Shown here: in pieces, positions 5,339-31,981 of the stretch
Numbering within the stretch: the stretch's first letter is position 1
Layout: each line of letters begins with the position of its first letter
Assembly (NCBI GenBank): GCA_937924525.1
Contig: CALDSU010000002.1
Location: forward strand, 124,001-188,000
Direction of reading: 5' to 3'
Length of the DNA stretch: 64,000 bases
Origin: an uncultured Bryobacteraceae bacterium
GTDB taxonomy: Bacteria; Acidobacteriota; Terriglobia; Bryobacterales; Bryobacteraceae
Made by a program: the position numbers and the translations under genes
Notes under the pieces: model-generated
Databases searched by the model: none
The model's input: only the letters and a program-made list of their open reading frames with translations
What the model was told of the DNA's origin: nothing

Positions 5339-6235
5339 TTAGGGCGGTGGCTCGAAAAGCTCTCTGGCCGTGCGGAACGTATTGGCATGCGCCTCCACCG
5401 TGTCGCGCAGCGGTTCCGCGTAGCCGCCCCCCAGCGTCGCCACCAGCGGGATGCGGCGCCGGCGCGCGGCCTCCATCACCAGCCGGTCGCGTTCCCGCAA
5501 TCCGTCGTGGGTCAGCGAGAGACGTCCCAGGCGGTCGGTAGCCAGCCCGTCGACGCCGGTTTGAAACAGCAGCATTTCCGGTTCGAACGCCAGAACCTCG
5601 GGCAAGGCCTTCTCGAGCATCCGCAGGTATTCTTCGTCCCCGGTTCCGTCCGGCAGATCGATGTCGAGGCGGCTCCGCTGCTTGCGGAGCGGATAGTTGT
5701 TACGGCCATGCATGGAGAACGTGAACACCTCCGGATCGTCCGCGAAGATGGCGGCGGTGCCGTCGCCCTGGTGCACATCCAGGTCGACGACGGCCGCGCG
5801 GGCAATCCGCCCCAGGCGGCGCATCTCGTGAATGCAAATCGCCAGGTCGTTGAATACGCAGAAGCCCGCGCCCTCGGCATAGGAGGCGTGATGGGTGCCG
5901 CCAGCCAGGTTCCCGCCGAACCCTCTCCTCCACGCATCGTCCGCTGCCGCCAGGCTGCCGCCCACCGATGCCAGGGTGCGCCGTACCAGACCCGCGGACC
6001 AGGGAAACCCGATCTGGCGAACGATTTTCGGATCCAGCGTTCCCTCCAGGAAAGCCTGTACGTAAGCGGGGTGATGGGTCCGCTCAATCTGGGCGGCTTC
6101 CGCGAGGCGGGCAGGAACGAACTGGAAACCTCCGCTGGCCCGCAGCGCATCCCGCACCATTCCGTATTTCTCCATGGGAAACTTGTGTCCCGGAGGCAAA
6201 GGGATGGCGTAGTCGTCGCAGAAGTACAGGCGCAA
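5339..6235 (-). CDS. Histone deacetylase-family / acetoin-utilization-like hydrolase
   Basis: Arginase-deacetylase fold zinc hydrolase; bacterial members remove acetyl groups from lysines, polyamines or acetoin-related substrates. All 298 residues form one domain. Visible catalytic parts are the general-base pair H115-H116 in GGTHHA, zinc ligands D153 and H155 in DLDVHQGDGTA, the third ligand D229 in TGVDGLATDRLG, and the transition-state tyrosine Y272 in LGGGY. Length and motif order fit the short bacterial group (class IV-like) rather than AcuC. It is convergent with tadC and lies 52 nt downstream of rpmG on the same strand, with a hairpin between them. The substrate cannot be told from sequence. 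Confidence 0.88.
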   Translation of the reverse strand: MRLYFCDDYAIPLPPGHKFPMEKYGMVRDALRASGGFQFVPARLAEAAQIERTHHPAYVQAFLEGTLDPKIVRQIGFPWSAGLVRRTLASVGGSLAAADDAWRRGFGGNLAGGTHHASYAEGAGFCVFNDLAICIHEMRRLGRIARAAVVDLDVHQGDGTAAIFADDPEVFTFSMHGRNNYPLRKQRSRLDIDLPDGTGDEEYLRMLEKALPEVLAFEPEMLLFQTGVDGLATDRLGRLSLTHDGLRERDRLVMEAARRRRIPLVATLGGGYAEPLRDTVEAHANTFRTARELFEPPP

Positions 6236-6872: not shown

Positions 6873-9800
6873 TCAAAAGACGTACTTCAGGGCGAATTGC
6901 AGGTTCCGCATCGTGAGCCGGGTCCCGGTGATCCGTCCGAAATTGGCCGACGTCACGTTCGTGTTCGGATTGCCCCAGTTGGGAGTGTTCGGAAAGTTGA
7001 ACGCCTCAAACCGGAACTGCAAGTAGCGGCTTTCAGAGGGCAAGCGGAAGTTCTTCAACAACGAAAAGTCCCAGCCGATGATGCCTGGCGAATTGAGGGT
7101 GTTCCTCCCCACGTTGCCGTGGGTGCCCGGCGCGTTGGCGAAGAACTGGCTCGTGTCGAAGAACCGTTGCGGATCCTGCCGCCCTCGGGGCAGGGCGGCG
7201 CTTCTGCCGGTGGAGTTGGGCCGGTCGAAGAACGCGCCCGTATTGGAAGCGTCCTGCCCGTTGGTGACCGTAACGGGGAAGCCGGTTTGCAGCGTGAGAA
7301 TGCTTCCAATCTGCCACCCGCCCGCGACGGCGTCGAGGAACGGATGGTCGATGTTCGCCGCCTTCCCCCTGCCGACAGGAATGTCCCACAGCGCCGAGGT
7401 GACAAACCGCTGCCGCGTGTCGTGGCTCGAACGCGCCCGCTCGCATTGCCGGCAGTAACTATTCTGAGGAAACAGCGTGTCGCCGCCCTGGTTGCGGATG
7501 GCCGTCGCCGTGTCGATCGACTTGGCGTAGGTGTAACTGACGAGATAGGTCACCCCGTTCGAGTAGCGCTTGGTCAGTTTCGCGCCGAGGGAGTTATAGT
7601 TGCCATTGCCGCCATTGTCGACAAGCTGGATGCGCCCGAAATTCGGGAACGGCGACCGCTCGAACACCGCCCGCCGGTCCACCCTGGGGTCGGCCGGAAT
7701 CGCTTCGTTTACCGCCCGCAGGGATTCCAGCCGGTGGCTGACGCTGCCCAGGTATCCGATTTCCAGGAGCGTGTTATTCGGCAGTTCGCGCTGCACGTTC
7801 ACCATCATTTGCATGGAATACGGTGTCCGGCGGTCATAGGGATTGGCGAACGTGTACGGCCGGGGCACATTGGCGACGCCGCCCGCGATCGAGGCCAGGG
7901 CATTGCTCCAGTTCAACTGCGGAAATTGCTGGCTGGCGTTGTCCCGGAGCCGCCCGGCCAGGTTCCGCGCCATGTCAAACCGGGGGTTGCCCGTGTCTTG
8001 CGAATAGAACACGCCCGCGCCCGCGCGGACCACCCACTTGTCACCCGGCATCCAGGAAACCCCGAAGCGCGGCGCAAAGTCGTTCTTGTCGACTCCGACC
8101 AGCCGGTTGCCCAGCGCGCCGTCGCAACGGACGGCGATGTTCGGCCAGCGCAGATTGATGCCCTCGTAACAGTTTTGCCGCGGAGCGCCCTGCCGCATGA
8201 AGAAGGGGTACAGGCTCTGGTCTGCGACCCTCGGCGCCTCCAGCGTCGTCCGCGCGTCGAACGGCACGATTCCATTGAAAAGCGTCCCTGTCTGGTCTTC
8301 CCACGGCGGGTTCAGCTCGTAGCGCAGACCCGCGTTGATCGTCACCTTGCGGCTGATCTTCCAGGTTTCGTCGACGAAAAACGCGAGATTCGTGGCGCGA
8401 AACTGGGCTCTGGCGATCGATACGGCTGCCTCCGCCTGGAAAGTTTCGCCCAGGAGGAAATCCGCGAACGGATCGCCGGAGAGGCCCGGCAGCGCCAGAT
8501 TGTTCGTGGCGTTGCGCTGGAAGGTGAACTGTCCGCGGGCGAACTGGTTGCCCACCTGATTGTAGGCGTCGCGCCTGGCCTCGCCGCCGAACTTGATCGT
8601 GTGCTTGCCGCGCACGATCGTCGTGTTGTTGATGAACTGAAGCGCGCTGTTGTTGTTCTCGTAGGGTCCTTCCGAGCTGTTGCCGAACCCGGCGTAAACG
8701 CCCTGCAAGCTGACGTTCGGAATGCCCCACTGCACGGGAGGTCCGCTGGCCAGCCCGGGAATCTTCAGCTCGCCCACTACGTCCCGCGCAAAGGCGAGCT
8801 CCGGCCCCGTCGTGTTGTAAAACTGCGTAAAACCGAAACGCGCTTCGTTGACCACCGCCGGTGAAAGAACCCGGCTGTTGGACACCATGTATTGATTGAA
8901 ATTCGTCACGATCTTGTCGCCGTTCAGCCTCAGCGCTTCGGTCAGTTGGTTTTCGTCGCCCCAGGAGTAGCGCCCGAACCATTGCGAGGCGGACGATTCG
9001 ACGAAATCAAACCGGGTCACCAGTTGATCCCGGTTGATCGGACGTCCTTGCGCCTGCTGGAAGTTGTTCCGGAGCCCCGCCTCGGGCACATTCGGAACCG
9101 GATAGAACTCCAGCAATTGCCGGCTGACCGGGGCGATGCGGGTGCTGGGAATAATGTTGCCCGGAAACGGCGACGCGACGATCTGCCCCCCCACGCTGGT
9201 TCTGCTACGCGGATCGAAAATGCCCGCCGTCCCCAGCGGCAGTTCGCTGAAGTTCCCCTCCCGCATGGCCGGCGACGGAAGACTGGAAATCGCCTGCACG
9301 GTCCGCCGCTGGCGGAACCACTCGTAGTTGGCCATGAAGAACAGCCGGTTGCGCCCGTCAAATAACTTCGGCACCGAAACCGGCCCGCTGAGAGTGAAGC
9401 CAAACTGATTCAGCCGGAAAGGATCCTTCGGCGGACGGTTGGCCGTGAAGGCGTAATTCTTCGCGTCCAGTTTCTCATTCCGCAGGAAGTGGAACAGCGT
9501 GCCATGATAATCGTTCCCGCCGCTCTTGGTCATGATGTTGATCTGCGTCGCGCCCCGGCCAAACTCCGCCGGATAGATCCCGGACTGCACCTTGAACTCC
9601 TGGAGGGCATCCACCGACGGAATCACCACGAAGGTGTTGAAGTTCGGATCCGTGTTCTCCACCCCGTCCAGGGTGAAGCGGTTGTATTGCGCCCTTTGTC
9701 CGCCCACCGAAATCGACTGGGCGGCGCGGATTCCTCCCTGCCTGGCGTCCGCTTGACCCGCCGCCGGGAACCCGAAGCTCACATTCGGCGCCAGCGCCAC

Positions 9801-10256
9801 CAGTTGCAAAGCGTTGCGGCCGTTCAGCGGCAATTCGATGATCCGTTTGTTCTCGATCACGGTGCCCACGGTCGCGTTCTCCGTTTGCAGGCTGACCGCT
9901 CCCGCGGAAACCGAAACCGACTCTGTCACGTCACCCACCGCCATCTCAAAGTCCAGGCGCAAGTTCTGTTGCACCTCCAGGGTCACGTTGCTCCGGATCG
10001 CGGTCTTGAACCCTTTCGCCGCCACCTTCACTTCATACGAGCCCGGATTTAGGGCGGGAAACGAGAACACCCCGGCGTCATTGGTGACCGCTTCGCGCGT
10101 CGCGGCGGTCGCGTTGTTGCGCACGCTAACCAGCGCGCCCGCGATGACCGCGCCGGTGGAATCCGTCACAATTCCCGTGATTTCCCCCATGGTCTGCGCG
10201 AATCCCGGCGCGACCGTTACCAGCAGAGTATAGAAGAGATACAGGCTCTTCCTCAC
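6873..10256 (-). CDS. Oar-like TonB-dependent outer-membrane receptor 1
   Basis: Large outer-membrane transporter predicted to import a bulky ligand with energy from TonB-ExbBD. Of 1127 residues, the first 20 are a signal peptide ending GFAQ. A carboxypeptidase-regulatory-like beta-sandwich follows (GEITGIVTDSTGAVI, NPGSYEVKV), then a plug domain (ELPLNGRNALQL, TLDGVENTDPN), then a long beta-barrel ending in the terminal aromatic FALKYVF. This architecture expands strongly in Acidobacteria. The start is GTG with AGGAGG 5-6 nt upstream. It is monocistronic, and three tandem dyad repeats lie 28-92 nt upstream. The ligand is unknown; carbohydrate polymers or peptides are usual guesses. Confidence 0.9.
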   Translation of the reverse strand: MRKSLYLFYTLLVTVAPGFAQTMGEITGIVTDSTGAVIAGALVSVRNNATAATREAVTNDAGVFSFPALNPGSYEVKVAAKGFKTAIRSNVTLEVQQNLRLDFEMAVGDVTESVSVSAGAVSLQTENATVGTVIENKRIIELPLNGRNALQLVALAPNVSFGFPAAGQADARQGGIRAAQSISVGGQRAQYNRFTLDGVENTDPNFNTFVVIPSVDALQEFKVQSGIYPAEFGRGATQINIMTKSGGNDYHGTLFHFLRNEKLDAKNYAFTANRPPKDPFRLNQFGFTLSGPVSVPKLFDGRNRLFFMANYEWFRQRRTVQAISSLPSPAMREGNFSELPLGTAGIFDPRSRTSVGGQIVASPFPGNIIPSTRIAPVSRQLLEFYPVPNVPEAGLRNNFQQAQGRPINRDQLVTRFDFVESSASQWFGRYSWGDENQLTEALRLNGDKIVTNFNQYMVSNSRVLSPAVVNEARFGFTQFYNTTGPELAFARDVVGELKIPGLASGPPVQWGIPNVSLQGVYAGFGNSSEGPYENNNSALQFINNTTIVRGKHTIKFGGEARRDAYNQVGNQFARGQFTFQRNATNNLALPGLSGDPFADFLLGETFQAEAAVSIARAQFRATNLAFFVDETWKISRKVTINAGLRYELNPPWEDQTGTLFNGIVPFDARTTLEAPRVADQSLYPFFMRQGAPRQNCYEGINLRWPNIAVRCDGALGNRLVGVDKNDFAPRFGVSWMPGDKWVVRAGAGVFYSQDTGNPRFDMARNLAGRLRDNASQQFPQLNWSNALASIAGGVANVPRPYTFANPYDRRTPYSMQMMVNVQRELPNNTLLEIGYLGSVSHRLESLRAVNEAIPADPRVDRRAVFERSPFPNFGRIQLVDNGGNGNYNSLGAKLTKRYSNGVTYLVSYTYAKSIDTATAIRNQGGDTLFPQNSYCRQCERARSSHDTRQRFVTSALWDIPVGRGKAANIDHPFLDAVAGGWQIGSILTLQTGFPVTVTNGQDASNTGAFFDRPNSTGRSAALPRGRQDPQRFFDTSQFFANAPGTHGNVGRNTLNSPGIIGWDFSLLKNFRLPSESRYLQFRFEAFNFPNTPNWGNPNTNVTSANFGRITGTRLTMRNLQFALKYVF

Positions 10257-10283
10257 ACAAACCTCCTCGTAGGGGGAATCGAT

Positions 10284-10345
10284 CTGCCCCCCTTGGCAAC
10301 CAGGACCTGCCTCTTGGCAGTGAGTCGTATCTGCCCCCTTGGCAG
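10284..10345 (-). promoter_or_regulatory. Three tandem CTGCC-N-GGCA(G) dyads upstream of TonB receptor 1
   Basis: CTGCCCCCCTTGGCA starts at 10284, CTGCCTCTTGGCAG at 10307 and CTGCCCCCTTGGCAG at 10331. Each has a CTGCC/GGCAG dyad with a 4-6 nt centre, and the copies are spaced 23 and 24 bp, close to two helical turns. They lie 28-92 nt before the GTG start of the receptor. The phased spacing suggests cooperative binding by one regulator. The arrangement is seen directly; the operator role is inferred. Confidence 0.55.
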
Positions 10346-10620
10346 TCAGTATGATGGATAATTAGCACCGTTGCCGTAAGAATGCAACAAAATTCGTCGG
10401 GGAATAGGGTTGGGAAGTACAGGTTGCCGTATGCCCCGCAGAACGGAGTTCTGGTTCCCGGCGCCCCTTCCGAAGGGACCTCAGCTTCTATTCGAGAATG
10501 AAAACCGCGCTTAAAGGGAGCTTAGGTTCAGCATTTTCTGCGATTTCCAAGCTGGGGAGTCGGGTCGCGCGCGGCTCGGGAGCAGCCCGGGTTGGGGTGG
10601 TCGGAGCCTGAGCGATCGCG

Positions 10621-10638
10621 CGGCGACGATCGTCGCCG
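10621..10638. promoter_or_regulatory. 18-bp perfect palindrome upstream of folD
   Basis: CGGCGACGATCGTCGCCG is a perfect 18-bp palindrome with no spacer, 114 bp before the folD start. A spacer-free palindrome is a better fit to a protein-binding site than to an RNA hairpin. The surrounding gap between TonB receptor 1 and folD (10346-10620 and 10639-10751) holds no convincing gene. Confidence 0.4.
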
Positions 10639-10751
10639 GCTGTCAGACCCGGCGCCGAGGCGCAAGATTCGCTTCTGGCGGCAGCAGGCTGTCTTCCTTA
10701 CGCCTGGACGGGATCCCACTTTCCGGAAGGATCCCTGCTACCTTCATATTG

Positions 10752-11657
10752 ATGGCAAACATCCTGGCGGGCACTCCCGTGCGCGACGCCATCCTGGCGG
10801 AACTGGCGGAGCGCATCCGGCGGCTACCTCGCGCTCCGGGGCTCGCGGTCATCCTGGCCGGGGACAATCCGGCTTCGGCGATTTACGTGCGCAACAAGGT
10901 GAAAGCCTGCGCCGAACTGGGCATCGTGAGCGAACAGCGCACGCCGCCCGCATCCATTGAAACCAGTGAGTTGCTGGCGATGGTGCAGGAATTCAACGAG
11001 CGGCCCGAAATCGACGGCATCCTGGTCCAGATGCCGCTGCCGCCTCAGGTGGACAGCCGCCGCGTGCTCCAGGCGATCGCGCCGGAAAAGGATGTCGATG
11101 GCTTTCATCCCGTGAACGTTGGCTACCTGGTGGCGCAGGTGGAGGGACCGCGGGCGTGCACCCCGGCGGGCATTATGCGATTGCTGGCGCACTACGGCAT
11201 TGCGGTGGCGGGAAGGCACGCGGTGGTGGTCGGCCGCAGCGACATCGTGGGCAAACCCATGGCGCTGCTGCTTCTTCACGCCCATGCGACGGTGACGATT
11301 TGCCACTCGAAGACGCCGGACCTGGCCGCGGTGTGCCGTGGCGCCGACCTCCTGGTGGCGGCCATGGGCCGTCCTGCCATGCTCACCCGCGACTATCTGA
11401 AACCGGGCGGCGTGGTGATTGATGTCGGGATGAACCGTCTGGACCGGCGCGAGCAGGTCGCCGGGATCTTCCGCGGCGATCCGAGGAAACTGGAGCAGTT
11501 CGAGCGCCATGGCAGCGTCCTGGTGGGCGACGTGCATCCGCTCGACGTAGCCGAGGTGGCCGGCGCGTATACGCCGGTGCCCGGGGGCGTCGGGCCCCTG
11601 ACCATCGCGATGCTGATGGCCAACACCGTCCGCGCCGCGGAACGCCGTGCATGCTGA
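10752..11657 (+). CDS. folD: Bifunctional methylenetetrahydrofolate dehydrogenase/cyclohydrolase
   Basis: Interconverts 5,10-methylene-, methenyl- and 10-formyl-tetrahydrofolate using NADP, supplying one-carbon units for purines, formyl-Met and methionine; cytosolic dimer. The 301 residues carry the active-site YVRNK (Y45, K49), ILVQMPLP, EKDVDGFHPVN, the dinucleotide-binding VVGRSDIVGKPM, and the C-terminal PVPGGVGPLT signature. ATG at 10752 is preceded immediately by an in-frame TTG; the ATG is preferred. The 3' end overlaps coaE by 7 nt, making it the first gene of a tightly packed three-gene unit. A secure call. Confidence 0.96.
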   Translation: MANILAGTPVRDAILAELAERIRRLPRAPGLAVILAGDNPASAIYVRNKVKACAELGIVSEQRTPPASIETSELLAMVQEFNERPEIDGILVQMPLPPQVDSRRVLQAIAPEKDVDGFHPVNVGYLVAQVEGPRACTPAGIMRLLAHYGIAVAGRHAVVVGRSDIVGKPMALLLLHAHATVTICHSKTPDLAAVCRGADLLVAAMGRPAMLTRDYLKPGGVVIDVGMNRLDRREQVAGIFRGDPRKLEQFERHGSVLVGDVHPLDVAEVAGAYTPVPGGVGPLTIAMLMANTVRAAERRAC

Positions 11658-23964: not shown

Positions 23965-24144
23965 CAGTGCGTTCGGAGACCGACGACGCTCGAGGGCGCG
24001 CGCCACCTGAAACCCGCTGGACAAAAGCGAGCGGGTCATGCCGCGGCAGGGCGCTCACCGAGATTTTTCCCCCTTTTCATTCGCTTGAAATATGCGGGTG
24101 CTATTCCTACTGAAGGAACGCGTTCCGCCAGGTGGAATGAACCC

Positions 24145-25011
24145 TTGCCGAAATCATCTTCCCACGTAGAGGTTCTCGAGAAAGCGGTGAAGGTCCTGGA
24201 GACGCTGGCGGCGCACCCGCCGTCCCTGAGTCTCCAAGACTTGTCGGCCGCCGTCGGACTGGCCAAGAGCTCAGTGCACCGGTTGCTGATGACGTGGCTG
24301 GAGTTGGGATATGTCGCGCGGCGTCCAGGCGGCGAGTATGGCCTTGGCTTGGCCGCGGTGGAACTGGCGCGCCGCGTGAGCCGCCGGAATCAAGTCGTGG
24401 AATTAAGCCACCAGACGCTGCGCCGCCTGCATCGCGAGAGCGGCGAAAGCGTCTACCTGGCGCTATACCGCGCGGGCCGGGTGGTGCTGCTCGACGCCCT
24501 GGAGGGCATCCATCCCTTGCGGGTCATCATTGACCTGGGCGAATTGTGTTACCTGCACGCCTCGGCGCAAGGCCGCGCGGTGGCGGCGTTTCTCGATCCG
24601 GAAGTTCTTGCGGCGCGCTTGCGGGCTTCGGGAATGCCCAAGATCAACGCCCGCACGCAGACGGGTTGGCGGACCTTGCAGGAACGGCTGCGGCAGGTGC
24701 GGACGGAAGGCTATGCGATCAATTGGGAAGAGACGGTCGAGGGTGCGGTGTGCCTGGGCGTACCGTTCTTTGCGGGCCTCCACGGCCCCGTGCTCGGGTC
24801 GCTCGGGGCCAGCATCCCGGTGTGCAGAGTGACCGAGTTGACGTTGCAACATCACCTGCGCCTGCTGCGCGAGGCGGGGCAGGCCTTGAGTGAAGTCTTG
24901 GCGGATGTTCCCGCCGAGCCCGACGCCTGGACCCGAAGCCAGGCGCTGGAGTTTTGCCCGCTCCCCTCCGGACGGCGCGGGAGTATCGGGGACGGCGTGC
25001 GGCCGTCCTGA
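24145..25011 (+). CDS. IclR-family transcriptional regulator
   Basis: One-component regulator of catabolic genes; usually a dimer or tetramer whose C-terminal domain binds a small acid. 288 residues: winged helix-turn-helix (about 5-65; EVLEKAVKVLE, LSLQDLSAAVGLAKSSVHRLL) and an IclR effector domain (RLHRESGESVYLAL, YLHASAQGRAVAAFL, ETVEGAVCLGVPFF). TTG at 24145 has AGGTGGA 8 nt before it and gives the usual short N-terminus; an in-frame TTG at 24085 is an alternative. TonB receptor 2 starts 44 bp downstream on the same strand, with uronate/xylan-type genes after it, so the regulator probably senses a sugar acid and controls that locus. Confidence 0.9.
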   Translation: MPKSSSHVEVLEKAVKVLETLAAHPPSLSLQDLSAAVGLAKSSVHRLLMTWLELGYVARRPGGEYGLGLAAVELARRVSRRNQVVELSHQTLRRLHRESGESVYLALYRAGRVVLLDALEGIHPLRVIIDLGELCYLHASAQGRAVAAFLDPEVLAARLRASGMPKINARTQTGWRTLQERLRQVRTEGYAINWEETVEGAVCLGVPFFAGLHGPVLGSLGASIPVCRVTELTLQHHLRLLREAGQALSEVLADVPAEPDAWTRSQALEFCPLPSGRRGSIGDGVRPS

Positions 25012-25054
25012 CCGGTTCCAAAAACAGGAATTCCTTTAACAAACAAGGAGACGT

Positions 25055-28000
25055 ATGCGTTTGCTCGCTGTCGTTGTGTCTTTATTGGCGCTGCTTGCGT
25101 CCGGCCCCGCCCCGGCGCAGGTGGCGTCTTCGGAAATCTTTGGCGTCGTGACCGATCCCAAGGGCGCGACGATCCCTCAAGCCGAAGTCCGGCTGCGGTC
25201 GGTGGATCAGGGCTTCGAGTATCGGTTTCAGACCGCGGAGACGGGCTACTACGCGTTTTCCAACTTGCGCCCCGGATCGTATACGCTGGCGGTGGAGGCG
25301 GCGGGTTTCCGCCCGCTGGTCCGCCAGGGAATCACGGCGGTGACCGCGCGCCGCATTCGCGTCGACCTTCAGTTGGAGCTTGGTTCGGTGGCCGAGACGG
25401 TCTCGGTGACCGCCGACGCCCCGCTGCTCGACGCGGGCAACCAGGAGATCGGCCAAACCATCGACAACCGGCGGGTGCTACAGTTGCCGTTGAACGGCCG
25501 CAGTTACCTCGAGCTGGCGACGCTCGCGCCGAACACCTTGCCTTTCGCCACCGGCACGCGCCAGGGAACCGGATTCGTCCTCGGCGGGAGCCGTTTCAAC
25601 TCCAACAACCTGATGGTGGACGGCATTGACAACAACACCCACTTCTTCAATCGCGACGTGGTCCGTCCGTCGGTGGACAGCATCGAGGAGTTCCGGGTGC
25701 TGACCAACTCGCCCAGCGCCGAGTTCGGACGGAACATGGGGGGCGTGGTCACGGTCGTCACCAAGTCCGGCGGCAACGAATTTCGCGGCACGGCCTTCTG
25801 GTTTCACCGGAACAATCATCTGAATGCGCGCAACGCGTTTTCCTCGGTGGCCAGCCCGTTCTTCCTGCGCAACCAGTACGGGGCGTCGCTCGGCGGACCG
25901 GTTCGGCGGAACCGGCTGTTCTTTTTCGGCAATTTTGAAAAACTGCGGCAGCGGGAATCCGGGGTCAGCAACCTGAGCGTGCCGCCCGTCGAACTCCGGC
26001 AGGGGATCTTCCCGGCGGCGCGGCAGGTGTTCGACCCGCTCACGACGCGGCCGCATCCGACCCAGGTCGGCGCCTTCGTGCGTGATCCGTTTCCCCAGAA
26101 TCGCATTCCCGAGCAGCGGATGGACCGCGTCGGCCGGCGCATCGCCAACGAGGCCTGGCCGCTCCCCAACATCGGCGCCACGCAGTATCGCCAGCAGGTG
26201 CCGCGCAACTTTGACGAGGATCAGTGGATGGTGCGCGGCGACTGGCGCGTGCGCGACACGCAACAGATCGCCATGCGCTACACCACCTACAGCACGTTCA
26301 CCGACGTCCGCGATGCATTTCCCGTCGCCTATTCCGGAGCGGCAAGTCCGGTCAACACCGGCCACAACGCCGCGCTGTCCCACACCTGGACGCTACGCCC
26401 CGCCTTGCTCAACGAATTCCGTCTCGGCTTCAACCGTTTCGTCGTTGACCAGAAGCCGCTTAACTTCGGCACCGACCCGGCGGGAGCCATTGGCCTGACG
26501 GGCACCAGCCCCAGCCGCCAGGTTTCCTCCTTCCCGTCCATCCAGACCGGCTACTCCGAGTTCGGCAGCGGCAGTAACCTGGTACTCTCCGCGGAAAACA
26601 CCTACCAGCTCTCCAATAACCTGACGTGGCACCGCGGCGGGCATACGCTGAAGACCGGCGTCGACCTGCGCGTCCTGCACGCCAGTGTATTCGGTTCGTT
26701 TGTCCCCTTCGGGCAGCTTCGCTTCGGCCCGATTTTCTCGAGTAATCCCTCGCAGCCGAACACCGGCGATGTCATCGCCGACCTGCTGCTCGGATACCCG
26801 CAGTCGATCCAGCTCAACGTCCAGTTCAGCCCGCTGTACAACCGGCAGTCGCTGTGGGGCGCCTACTTTCAGGACGACTGGCGGGTCAGCTCGCGGCTGA
26901 CGCTGAATCTCGGCCTTCGGTATGAGTTATTCACGCCGGTAGTGGACAAGTTCGACCGGCAGGGCAACCCGAACACCGCCAATCCGCAGGGTGAGTTCCG
27001 CCTGGCCACGCGGGGCGGGGAAGTGCCCTCCTGGGTGCGGCAGGAGATCGATTTGCTGCCGATCCCTCCCGGCGAGCGGAACCGCCTGTTCCTGCCCGGG
27101 GATTCGCGCGCTCTCACCCGGACAAACTGGTTTGACTTCTCTCCGCGCTTTGGCTTCGCCTACACCGTGGACAAGGCGACCGTGGTGCGGGGCGGCTTCG
27201 GCGTCTACCGCTCGCTCACCGGCGGGGGAACGTTCGTGCGGCTCGGCTTCAACCCGCCCAACTTCATTGAGACCTTTTTCATCGCTCCGGACGCGGTCAC
27301 CACGGTCGCCAAGCTGGAAAACGGCATCCCCTCGTTTCGGGAGGGCGCGGGGCGGATCGAGGGACTGAGCCCGCGGCATCTGTTCGAACACAACCGCACC
27401 CAGTTGACCACCCAAGGGAATCTCAACCTCCAGCGCCAGCTTGGCGCAAACGTCGTCGCCGAGGTCGGCTATCTGGCTTCGCGCGGCCGCAACCTGACGC
27501 TGTTTTTGCTGGAGAACCAGATCCGCAACCCGGCCGACTACGGCCGCGGCCAGGCGGCGCGTCCGGTGCCGGTGTTCGGCAACATCTGGGGCTGGGGCAG
27601 CGGCGCGCTGTCGCGTTATCACGCGGGCTACGCGCGCCTGGAGAAGCGTTTCAGCCAGGGTCTGGCGTTGCAGGGTTCGTATACGTTCGGCAAGTCGCTC
27701 GACAACGCTCCGGGAGACTTCGCGGTCGGCAACCTCGGTATTTCCGTGGCGCCGATCGACAGCTACGATTTGAGCCGCGAGTATGGGCCGTCGGGGTTCG
27801 ACGCCCGGCACCGCCTCGTCGTCTCGCAGGTTTACGAACTGCCGTTTGGCCGTGGCCGCCGCTGGCTCGGCAACGGCGGCCCGGCGGATTGGGCCCTCGG
27901 CGGCTGGGAGCTCTCCGGCATCACGAGTTGGAGTTCGGGCATCCCGGTGGATCCCAAGATGCAGACGACGCGCGTATTCAGCTTCAACAACCAGAACCGC

Positions 28001-28339
28001 CCCCACCGCGTGGCCGATGGCAACCTGAGCGGCAGCGCGCGCACGGTCGACCGCTGGTTCGATCCCGCGGCCTTCGTCGCGCCGCCGGACCTCGTGCTGG
28101 GCAACTCCGGCCGCAATGTCCTCCGCGCTCCCGGGGTCTTCCAGATGGATGCTACTCTCGGCAAGCGTTTTGCGTTCGGGGAAAACCGGTTTGTCCAGTT
28201 CCGCGCGGAGTTTTTCAATCTGACAAACACCGTGAACCTGGGGGCGCCGGTGAACTTCATCGGCAACCCCAACGCCGGGAGGATCCTCGGCAGCCGCGCC
28301 GCGCGGCAAATGCAGTTCGCGCTCAGGCTACACTTCTAG
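25055..28339 (+). CDS. Oar-like TonB-dependent outer-membrane receptor 2
   Basis: 1094-residue outer-membrane importer: signal peptide ending PAPAQ, carboxypeptidase-regulatory-like domain (EIFGVVTDPKGATIPQAEV), plug domain (QLPLNGRSYLELA, MVDGIDNNTHFFNRD, FGRNMGGVVTVVTKSGG) and a beta-barrel ending QFALRLHF with the terminal phenylalanine. AAGGAG lies 6-7 nt before the ATG. It sits between an IclR regulator and an FG-GAP protein whose start is 3 nt after the stop, so these two are co-translated. Context with a CE15 esterase suggests uptake of plant cell-wall oligosaccharides, but the ligand is not shown by the sequence. Confidence 0.9.
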   Translation: MRLLAVVVSLLALLASGPAPAQVASSEIFGVVTDPKGATIPQAEVRLRSVDQGFEYRFQTAETGYYAFSNLRPGSYTLAVEAAGFRPLVRQGITAVTARRIRVDLQLELGSVAETVSVTADAPLLDAGNQEIGQTIDNRRVLQLPLNGRSYLELATLAPNTLPFATGTRQGTGFVLGGSRFNSNNLMVDGIDNNTHFFNRDVVRPSVDSIEEFRVLTNSPSAEFGRNMGGVVTVVTKSGGNEFRGTAFWFHRNNHLNARNAFSSVASPFFLRNQYGASLGGPVRRNRLFFFGNFEKLRQRESGVSNLSVPPVELRQGIFPAARQVFDPLTTRPHPTQVGAFVRDPFPQNRIPEQRMDRVGRRIANEAWPLPNIGATQYRQQVPRNFDEDQWMVRGDWRVRDTQQIAMRYTTYSTFTDVRDAFPVAYSGAASPVNTGHNAALSHTWTLRPALLNEFRLGFNRFVVDQKPLNFGTDPAGAIGLTGTSPSRQVSSFPSIQTGYSEFGSGSNLVLSAENTYQLSNNLTWHRGGHTLKTGVDLRVLHASVFGSFVPFGQLRFGPIFSSNPSQPNTGDVIADLLLGYPQSIQLNVQFSPLYNRQSLWGAYFQDDWRVSSRLTLNLGLRYELFTPVVDKFDRQGNPNTANPQGEFRLATRGGEVPSWVRQEIDLLPIPPGERNRLFLPGDSRALTRTNWFDFSPRFGFAYTVDKATVVRGGFGVYRSLTGGGTFVRLGFNPPNFIETFFIAPDAVTTVAKLENGIPSFREGAGRIEGLSPRHLFEHNRTQLTTQGNLNLQRQLGANVVAEVGYLASRGRNLTLFLLENQIRNPADYGRGQAARPVPVFGNIWGWGSGALSRYHAGYARLEKRFSQGLALQGSYTFGKSLDNAPGDFAVGNLGISVAPIDSYDLSREYGPSGFDARHRLVVSQVYELPFGRGRRWLGNGGPADWALGGWELSGITSWSSGIPVDPKMQTTRVFSFNNQNRPHRVADGNLSGSARTVDRWFDPAAFVAPPDLVLGNSGRNVLRAPGVFQMDATLGKRFAFGENRFVQFRAEFFNLTNTVNLGAPVNFIGNPNAGRILGSRAARQMQFALRLHF

Positions 28340-28342
28340 GCG

Positions 28343-29533
28343 ATGCGGACGGGCCTCGTGGCTGTTCTCCTGCTGGCTGGTCCTGGAGTTCTCCGGGGCC
28401 AGCCGGTCTTTCACCCGGTCAGCGAAGGCCCGTACTTTCTTACCGCGGGCGATCTCAACGGCGATGGCGTTGACGATGTTTTGGCGGTCTGCCGCGGCGA
28501 GTTGCGCATGCCCGGCGACGCCCGCCCCGGCAACGACCAGATCACGGTCTACCTCTCCAAGCCCGGCGGCGTGAGGCGCCGGCAGGATTTTGGCGTGGGG
28601 TTTGGTCCGTACACCGCCGCCATCGCCGACCTCGACGGCGACGGCCGCAACGACGCCGCCGTCGTCAACTTCCAGGACGCCCGGCGTCACCTGTCCCTCC
28701 TGTGGGGTCCGCCAGGGGATGCCGTCCACCTCCAGGTGGAAGGCCCGTTCGAGTACGACAAGAGCCGCAACGAGCGGGGCGAGGCGATCTATCCGGCGCC
28801 GGGACTCACCTCCCTGGCGATCCGCGATTTCGACGGCGACGGCAAACCGGATATCGCCGCTGTCGCCTGGTCGAGCGACTTTTTCGTGATCTTCCGCAAC
28901 CTGGGCCAACGCAGGTTCCGCCAGATCCGCTACCCGCTGCCCCCTGGGCCGCGCGACGTCGCAGCCGCCGACTTCAACCGCGACGGTCACCCCGATCTGG
29001 CGTTTTCCATTTACTCTTCCAACCTGGTGGATGTCTGGCTCGGAGACGGCAAAGGCGGCTTCCGGCCTCACCAGCGGTTCCATGCGCAGGGGCACATCCC
29101 CTATCACCTGAAAGCCGGCGATCTCGACGGCGACGGCTGGCCCGATCTGGTGGTGGGCAATCGCGGACCTTCGGACAATGTTGCTGTATTTCGGAACCGC
29201 GGCGGGCGCTTCGGGTTCGTGGGTTCGTTCCGGCCGGGGACAGCCAAAACAGGCGAGGCTACTGCCGATGAGATCCGCGATGTTCTTCTGACCGACGCCG
29301 ACGGCGACGGCAAGCTGGATCTGGTGGCGGCCTGCCATCTCTCCCACAAAGTCGTGTTCTGGCGAGGCACGGGCAACCTGGCGTTTGGCGCCGCGTTCCA
29401 GGATCGCCGGGTGCTTGAATTCCCCGGCAAAGGACCGCGCGCCCTGCACCCGCTCGAGGGCGGAATCGGCGTGGCGTTCTTCCGCGCGAACGAGTTCGCG
29501 GTCTTTGGGGTGGAAGCTTTCCAAGCCAGGTAG
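28343..29533 (+). CDS. Secreted FG-GAP/VCBS-repeat calcium-binding propeller protein
   Basis: 396 residues with a signal peptide (hydrophobic 4-16, LRGQ end). Six calcium-loop motifs recur through the chain: DLNGDGVDD, DLDGDGRND, DFDGDGKPD, DFNRDGHPD, DLDGDGWPD and DADGDGKLD, the integrin-alpha-like FG-GAP pattern that folds into a beta-propeller. Such proteins bind carbohydrates or surfaces outside the cell. The gene starts 3 nt after the TonB receptor stop and must share its mRNA. A partner role in polymer binding for that receptor is inferred. No catalytic residues are evident. Confidence 0.85.
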   Translation: MRTGLVAVLLLAGPGVLRGQPVFHPVSEGPYFLTAGDLNGDGVDDVLAVCRGELRMPGDARPGNDQITVYLSKPGGVRRRQDFGVGFGPYTAAIADLDGDGRNDAAVVNFQDARRHLSLLWGPPGDAVHLQVEGPFEYDKSRNERGEAIYPAPGLTSLAIRDFDGDGKPDIAAVAWSSDFFVIFRNLGQRRFRQIRYPLPPGPRDVAAADFNRDGHPDLAFSIYSSNLVDVWLGDGKGGFRPHQRFHAQGHIPYHLKAGDLDGDGWPDLVVGNRGPSDNVAVFRNRGGRFGFVGSFRPGTAKTGEATADEIRDVLLTDADGDGKLDLVAACHLSHKVVFWRGTGNLAFGAAFQDRRVLEFPGKGPRALHPLEGGIGVAFFRANEFAVFGVEAFQAR

Positions 29534-29609
29534 GCGGGCGTGAACCACCTCGGAAACATCCGCCAGGTCTTCCGCGAAGGCTCGGCCGGCCCGCGCGCCT
29601 GGAAGCGGA

Positions 29610-29639
29610 TTGGCATCCGCGGCCGTTCTGGCATACAAT
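29610..29639 (+). promoter_or_regulatory. Predicted sigma70-type promoter for the isomerase gene
   Basis: TTGGCA at 29610-29615 and TACAAT at 29634-29639 are separated by 18 bp. The -10 element ends only 9 nt before the ATG at 29649 and no Shine-Dalgarno lies between, so the transcript would be nearly leaderless. Confidence 0.45.
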
Positions 29640-29648
29640 CGCTACGCC

Positions 29649-30740
29649 ATGACGCCTCACTGGAACCGCCGCGCATTTTTGCGAACGCTGGCCGGCGCCG
29701 CGCTGACGCCGGTTGTTTCCGCCGCCAGGCCTTACGAGGAATGGGCGCCGGGGATCAAACTCTCTTACCAGATGCCCAGCGATATCCCGGACGAGGACCT
29801 CGCGTTTGTGAAGCAAATGGGTCTCGAATACGTCAGCGTCTGGACCGGCAAAGACAAGGCGACGCTCGAGAACTTCAAAGCCATCAAGCACAAGGTGGAG
29901 AGCGCCGGACTCAAAGTCTGGAATATCGGCAACCTGAACGTGCACAACATGCCTGAGGTCACGTTGAACCTGCCGGGACGCGACCGCAAAATTGAGGAGT
30001 ATAAGCAGAATCTCCGCAACCTGGCCGCGGTCGGCATCCGCTACACCACGTACGCGCACATGGGCAATGGCATCTGGAGTTCGGAACGGGAAACCACCCG
30101 CGGCGGCGCTCCCGCCCGCGCGTTCAACCAGCAGACCGCGAAAGGTTACTGGGACGGCCAGGTCTTTGCAGGGCCGCTGACCCATGGCCGCAAGTACACC
30201 AACGAAGAAATCTGGGAGAACTACACCGATTTCATCCGGCAGGTGGCGCCGGTTGCAGAGGAAGTGGGGGTGCGGATCGGCATCCACCCGGACGATCCTC
30301 CCGTGCCCGAATTGGGCGGCGTGCCGCGCTGCATTTTCAGCAATTACGACGGCTACGTCAAAGCGCTCGAAATCGCGAACAGTCCCAATGTCGGCGTCTG
30401 CCTGTGCTGTGGCACCTGGCTGGAAGGCGGCAAGCACACCGGCAGGGACGTCGTGGAGGCCGCCCGGGGTTTCGCCAAGATGGGCAAGCTCTGGAAGATC
30501 CACTTCCGCAACGTCAGCGCGCCCATCCCGCACTTTGTCGAAACCTTTGTCGACGACGGCTATGGGGACATGTGGAAGATCATGAAGACGCTTGCCGAAG
30601 TGGACTTTCGCGGCATTCTGATCGCGGACCACGTCCCGCAAATGGTGGGTGACCGCCGGACAAGCTGGGCGTACAATCTCGGCTACATCAAGGCGCTGAA
30701 GAACCGCGCCGAAGCGGAAGTGAGAGGGCGGCGGTCATGA
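29649..30740 (+). CDS. Tat-exported sugar phosphate isomerase/epimerase-like protein
   Basis: Xylose-isomerase-like TIM barrel (AP endonuclease 2 superfamily). 363 residues: a twin-arginine signal [16 protein letters not shown], then the barrel. [10 protein letters not shown] and [11 protein letters not shown] match conserved strands bearing metal ligands, and IHFRNVSAP and [12 protein letters not shown] match the mannonate dehydratase-like group closely. Similarity to UxuA-type mannonate dehydratase makes a role in glucuronate-derived sugar acid conversion possible, but Tat-exported paralogues in Acidobacteria are mostly uncharacterised. The stop overlaps the next start as ATGA, so it is co-translated with the CE15 esterase. 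A promoter lies directly in front. Confidence 0.78.
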
Positions 30741-31981
30741 GGCGGCGGGAACTGCTGTGGCTGCCGGCGGCGGCGTGGGCCGCGCCGCCGGCCAACTACA
30801 ACGAATCGCGGGTGCCGGAATACACGCTGCCGGACCCGCTGGTGTTCGCCAACGGCCAGCGCGTGCGCACGGCGGCGGACTGGAGCCGGCGGCGGGCCGA
30901 GATTCTGGAACAATTCCGCTCGCAGATGTTCGGGCGGCATCCCGGTCCTCCGCGCCGCGTCACTCACGAGGTGCTGGCCGCCGATCCGACGGCGCTCGCC
31001 GGCAAAGCGATCCGCAAGCAGGTGCGCGTGCAGATTGAAGACAAAGTTCCGATGGACCTCCTGCTGTATCTGCCGGCGGGCGCCGGCAGGCCCGTGCCCG
31101 TATTTCTCGGCCTGAATTTCCAGGGGAATCACGCGGTCCACCCGGACCCGGGCATCCTGCTGTCGGACCGGTGGATGCGGCCGAACGCCCCGGGCGTGGA
31201 GAATAACCGCGCGACGGAAGCCTCCCGCGGGGCGGCCGCCACCCGCTGGCCGGTCGAGTTAATTCTGTCCCGCGGCTACGGGCTGGCTACGATCTACTAT
31301 GGCGACATCGATCCGGATTTCGACGACGGCTTTCAGAACGGCGTCCACCCGCTCTACTACGCGGCGGGGCAGACGCGGCCCGGTCCGGACCAATGGGGAT
31401 CGATCGCCGCTTGGGCGTGGGGACTGAGCCGGGCGCTGGATTACCTGGAGCAGGATCCGCAAGTGGACGCCAAGCGCGTGGCGGTGCTGGGGCACTCGCG
31501 CCTGGGCAAAACGTCGCTGTGGGCCGCCGCGGAGGATACGCGATTCGCGCTGGCGATCTCGAACAATTCCGGCTGTGGCGGCGCGGCTCTTTCCCGCCGC
31601 GCCTACGGGGAGACGGTCGAGCGGATCAACACGGTCTTTCCACACTGGTTCTGCGCGAATTTCAAGCGCTACAACGGCCGCGAGGCGGAATTGCCGTTCG
31701 ACCAGCACATGCTGATCGCGTTGATCGCGCCGCGTCCGGGGTATGTGGCCAGCGCGCAGGAAGACCTCTGGGCCGACCCCCTGGGTGAATTCCTCAGCGC
31801 CAAACACGCCAGTCCCGTCTACCGGTTGTTGGGTAAAGACGGGTGCGGCGCGACGGCCATGCCGCCCATTCACCAGCCCGTGATGACCACCGTCGGCTAC
31901 CATGTCCGCGCCGGCAAACACGACCTGACCCGCTACGACTGGGAGCGCTACCTCGATTTCGCCGATCGCCAGATGAAGTAA
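30737..31981 (+). CDS. Glucuronoyl esterase-like protein (carbohydrate esterase family 15)
   Basis: Alpha/beta hydrolase predicted to cut ester bonds between 4-O-methyl-glucuronic acid of xylan and lignin alcohols. 414 residues with a short signal-like N-terminus. The CE15 nucleophile motif is [11 protein letters not shown] with S254; [14 protein letters not shown] and the [16 protein letters not shown] block are diagnostic of the family; the catalytic histidine is H395 in GKHDLT. A glutamate acid may lie in the usual loop. Start overlaps the isomerase-like gene by 4 nt. Together with the IclR regulator and TonB receptor 2 this gives a plausible glucuronoxylan-processing locus. Confidence 0.86.

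Follow-up and report, generated by a model that had tools for sequence, protein, structure and literature searches.

Three tandem imperfect palindromes before one Oar-like receptor gene of an acidobacterium: a possible local operator cluster

The window, the whole 64,000-nucleotide stretch of DNA that was analysed, comes from a probable Bryobacteraceae genome of 5.52 Mb that is 99% complete. On its minus strand, positions 6873 to 10256 encode an Oar-like outer-membrane receptor (CarboxypepD_reg and OMP_b-brl_4) with a GTG start codon and a signal-peptide-like N-terminus. A ribosome-binding site, GAGGAGG, was read directly at 10262 to 10268 on the same strand. An array of short dyads is located in the non-coding gap between the receptor start codon and the divergent folD gene, the open reading frame of which begins at 10749. 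Downstream of the receptor there is a gene for a histone-deacetylase-fold protein (5339 to 6235, minus strand; Hist_deacetyl, E 4.9e-58). The sequence-only reading of this DNA had stated that no regulator gene is adjacent and, consistent with this, a scan of a subset of the neighbouring open reading frames recognised no transcription regulator. Regulatory genes are found 8 to 15 kb away and encode a receiver-GGDEF protein, a hybrid histidine kinase and an IclR-family regulator.

The array consists of three copies in 62 bp, each an imperfect palindrome of 14 to 16 bp. The order toward the receptor gene, read directly on the minus strand, is unit 1, CTGCCAAGGGGGCAG (10331 to 10345, 5-bp arms, loop of 5), a spacer of 10 nt, unit 2, CTGCCAAGAGGCAG (10307 to 10320, 5-bp arms, loop of 4), a spacer of 7 nt, unit 3, TTGCCAAGGGGGGCAG (10284 to 10299, 4-bp arms, loop of 6), and a final 27 nt that separate the array from the GTG codon at 10256. 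The sequence was re-read and the three CTGCC-N4-6-GGCA(G) repeats previously described were present, starting at 10284 (N6), 10307 (N4) and 10331 (N5) and near the start codon as claimed; the half-site spacing within the units is thus not constant. The outermost pair of unit 3 is non-complementary, since its minus strand reads TTGCC...GGCAG. The core of the array is asymmetric, TGCCAAG (CTTGGCA on the other strand) followed by a G-rich stretch and a closing GGCAG, so the units are direct repeats as much as they are dyads. The arms have been kept almost exactly, most of the sequence between the copies differs, and the differences among units reside mainly in the G-run (GGGGG, GAGG and GGGGGG). 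Units 1 and 3 are alike beyond the dyad, with common flanks CAGATACGA and CAGATCGA.

The copies had also been described as helically phased at 23 to 24 bp. The steps are indeed 23 and 24 bp when measured by the starts of the units, but 22 and 24.5 bp by their centres and 21 and 25 bp by the CTTGGCA core. Only the 21-bp core step corresponds to a whole number of 10.5-bp turns and, because the spacing is uneven, the array is not helically phased.

The loose pattern, CTGCC-N4-6-GGCA, has nine matches in the window where 3.9 are expected, a number reached by one of 100 shuffles; five of the nine match rows are the array and the rest are background. A motif-blind search asked for three occurrences of one 7-mer inside 60 bp, each accompanied by a dyad with 4-bp arms. 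The 64-kb window has one such triple, the array, and 79.7 Mb of first-order Markov sequence likewise gave a single one, a figure that serves as a guide because the criteria were chosen after the array had been seen. There was no other in 585 kb comprising the loci of relatives and the upstream stretches of the receptor genes of the same genome. The separate components were less distinctive: the window has five clusters of three 4-bp-arm dyads (simulated mean 2.9, maximum 7), four pairs of 5-bp-arm dyads (simulated 1.7, maximum 6) and five plain 7-mer triples within 60 bp (simulated 1.2, maximum 6). Dyad clustering or 7-mer triples alone are not unusual, while their combination is rare.

Elsewhere in the host genome, searches for this pattern turned up no further array. 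Pairs of TGCCAAG 6 to 30 nt apart occur only in the array, and YTGCCAAGN{1,4}GGCAG occurs at five places, three of which are the array, as against four for the reversed control. Near-matches with up to two mismatches to CTGCCAAGNNGGCAG and CTGCCAAGNGGCAG numbered 191 and 211, respectively, compared with 309 and 290 for the reversed controls, and a relaxed dyad-plus-third-arm pattern gave 15 rows, four of them the array, against 13 in the control. The genome has 69 OMP_b-brl_4 matches, which correspond to 65 genes once four split matches are merged. The motif-blind triple was present in one of these 65 receptor stretches, that of the gene described here, and absent from the 64 paralogue stretches. 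When the 200 nt upstream were compared in 57 receptors (eight of the 65 were left out for doubtful or missing starts), three dyads preceded this gene and one preceded another, L206. Within 250 nt, a comparison that covered the 64 of 65 receptors with a called start, TGCC-N3-8-GGCA was found before three (this gene, L191 and L206) and the core, TGCCAAG or CTTGGCA, before two (this gene and L210, where it stands alone). The other receptor genes have differing dyads upstream, which hints at gene-by-gene control, and a simple listing, as distinct from a motif-discovery program, revealed no repeat common to the receptor upstream regions. The sequence-only reading had envisaged a regulator that acts in trans and had proposed the genome search for arrays before other Oar-like receptors; the search returned only this gene's own array and, with the deficit of near-matches relative to the reversed control, contradicts trans control of several Oar-like genes. 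The motif was consequently rejected as that of a multi-gene regulon.

The exact array pattern was found in one of 257 genomes of the order, its own, and was absent from the other 256. Among 237 genomes of the family, a DNA search with the array matched two, its own and, weakly (78%, E 0.008), a second genome, in which the match lacks the TGCCAAG core and was taken as chance. Across the phylum, at least one TGCCAAG pair was present in 199 of 396 genomes drawn from a larger group, with control counts that were often above zero as well; on visual inspection, the pairs among the matches listed resemble chance occurrences or repeats within coding sequence.

Receptor homologues (E up to 0.001) were present in all 61 genomes searched, the nearest, with 88% identity, in a Bryobacteraceae MAG (L007, on the same contig as L046). 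Upstream regions were compared for 23 of the 30 loci L006 to L035, own locus included (L021 and L030 to L035 were left out), giving 22 homologues of 43 to 88% identity. Neither the TGCCAAG core, on either strand, nor a triple of dyads was found upstream of these 22, one of which (L024) has just 56 nt visible. A plain TGCC-N-GGCA dyad was found upstream of two, TGCCATGGGGCA in L009 and TGCCTGTGGCGGCA in L010. The former, before a homologue of 70% identity, has two differences from the inner 12 bases of unit 2 and may be chance or the trace of a common site. The 502 bp upstream of the receptor had no blastn match in 67 loci, folD was not found around the receptor in the same loci (stretches of up to 3 kb on each side), and at L046 the receptor gene alone aligns. 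Since no examined relative has the same neighbourhood, no true orthologous promoter was compared and the absence of the array is weak evidence that would not refute its conservation. Absence from orthologous promoters, named in the sequence-only reading as an observation that would speak against the proposed site, was therefore formally encountered in the 22 homologues but counts for little, the intergenic region not being common to the relatives.

A strict scan for sigma-70 promoters between 10200 and 10800 found none. With loose scoring, a weak candidate sigma-70-like promoter, TTGCAT-N18-AATTAT (10358 to 10387, minus strand), agrees with the consensus at 7 of 12 bases, the best score, which it shares with several other candidates. 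Of the best 10 loose candidates, eight have a -10 element that ends 91 to 104 nt before the start codon and two have one that ends at 129 to 130 nt. The array has its outer edge 89 nt from the start codon, with most candidate -10 elements just upstream of it. The weighted promoter score was 9.9 for this gene and up to 14.7 for other receptor genes. If transcription starts at these candidates, the array would fill the leader or begin at the start site.

The array is a real and unusual local repeat, of an ordinary kind, at one gene. On the basis of its sequence and position, we tentatively favour, at somewhat less than even confidence, a local cluster of operators that would lie at the transcription start of a single receptor gene or immediately beyond it and that may act as a private switch for this gene. 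The putative operators would be situated between the candidate promoter and the ribosome-binding site, spanning the start site and the first 60-odd bases. A DNA-binding protein encoded elsewhere would bind the three copies and, at this gene alone, block or modulate transcription, conceivably by obstructing RNA polymerase. The position of the promoter, the binding of the protein and the direction of its effect are what we infer; the repeats and their place were observed directly.

Several observations favour this reading, 1) one palindrome is present several times in a single promoter region, 2) three copies in 62 bp are rare by the motif-blind test and the likeness of units 1 and 3 extends outside the dyad, 3) the array is directly before the start codon and eight of the 10 best, albeit weak, -10 elements are just upstream and 4) the differing dyads before other receptors fit gene-by-gene control. 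Against it are the uneven spacing of 21 to 25 bp, the lack of a second array, single-site near-matches below the reversed control, the absence of an array in the relatives searched, the weakness of the promoter candidates and the fact that the nearest likeness is the L009 dyad. The copies are not a whole number of helical turns apart, a spacing that helps cooperative binding but is not always required. Moreover, loops of 4, 5 and 6 nt turn the half-sites against each other, which is unusual for a dimer operator. The gal and lac multi-operator promoters likewise have several near-identical palindromic sites near one promoter; however, in those promoters the regulator is known and the half-site spacing is fixed, whereas the spacing in the array varies both within and between sites. 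If functional, the array would be an entry point to how an acidobacterium with about 65 Oar-like receptors switches a single one. Among the literature matches listed, no title dealt with the motif or with how Oar-like receptors are regulated in Acidobacteria.

The uniqueness of the array is accounted for about as well by neutral local duplication as by a DNA or RNA element. One short dyad would have been copied twice in place, with slippage in the G-run, and would have no function, a close rival that we consider somewhat less likely than the operator cluster. The genome has no second array and the relatives searched have none, the units differ mainly in the G-run, as slippage would give, and units 1 and 3 have common flanks, as copies would. 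On the other hand, both arms were kept almost exactly while the intervening sequence mostly differs, an outcome that pure decay would not favour, and the place directly before the start codon would be a coincidence.

About as probable as the duplication, and likewise a close rival, is an RNA element, in which transcription of the units would give the 5' leader three short hairpins that protect the mRNA or tune ribosome access. They lie between most of the candidate -10 elements (eight of the best 10) and the ribosome-binding site. In an RNA it is the stems that matter, so loop length may vary, and the nearly constant arms and variable loops of 4 to 6 nt suit RNA more than they suit a rigid dimer site. 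In isolation, units 1, 2 and 3 folded at -6.6, -6.8 and -5.3 kcal/mol, respectively, with 10, 12 and 20 of 200 shuffles as good (z -2.15, -2.90 and -1.73), and the hairpins of units 1 and 2 also appear when the whole leader is folded. Nevertheless, the leader as a whole is no more stable than its shuffles at 113 nt (z -0.09, 88 of 200 as good) and a 91-nt leader gave a z of -1.25 (22 of 200 as good). The hairpin of unit 3 is absent from the leader folds, where it is outcompeted by pairing of its G-run with a CCCCC just upstream of the ribosome-binding site, and the 62-nt array by itself pairs unit 1 with unit 3 (z -1.36, 19 of 200 as good). Folding the plus strand of the region likewise gave nothing remarkable (z -0.82, 39 of 200 as good). 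There was no Rfam match in the window at the gathering level or in 10000 to 11000 at E up to 5, and no such element was found in the relatives searched. If the -10 element ending 91 nt before the start codon is real, transcription would begin inside unit 1. Some bacterial mRNAs are stabilised by stem-loops in the 5' leader that, as the units of the array would be, are short, GC-rich and placed shortly after the presumed transcription start, but the array differs in having three near-identical small candidate hairpins in a leader that is, overall, no stabler than shuffled sequence. A DNA element agrees better than an RNA with the ordinary overall stability of the leader and with the asymmetric core that the units repeat. 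A more elaborate version, in which a dedicated binding protein or small molecule recognises the three stem-loops as RNA and they are one of many private controls that separate the approximately 65 receptors, is very improbable.

Least probable of all is that the array belongs to a multi-gene regulon or to a dispersed REP- or MITE-like element, of which short tandem dyads are typical, for many genomic copies were not found, TGCCAAG pairs 6 to 30 nt apart being confined to the array and the 237 family genomes yielding only the own locus and the one weak match without the core.

Two further sites before Oar-like receptors were noted. Upstream of a receptor homologue in another genome (L028, genome G020), a perfect palindrome, CGCAAACGTTTGCG, which resembles a LacI-family operator, is located just downstream of TTGACA-N17-TAGGCT. 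It shares with the array the position of a dyad that follows closely on a -35/-10-like pair in front of an Oar-like receptor gene, but it is a single site of other sequence. Within the window, a second Oar-like receptor gene (25055 to 28339) directly follows the IclR-family regulator gene (24085 to 25011) and has no TGCC-N3-8-GGCA dyad in the 200 nt before it. It is followed by genes for an FG-GAP protein, a UxuA-like/xylose-isomerase-like protein and a glucuronyl-esterase-like protein, and the cluster (24085 to 31981) likely functions in uronate or plant-polysaccharide uptake.
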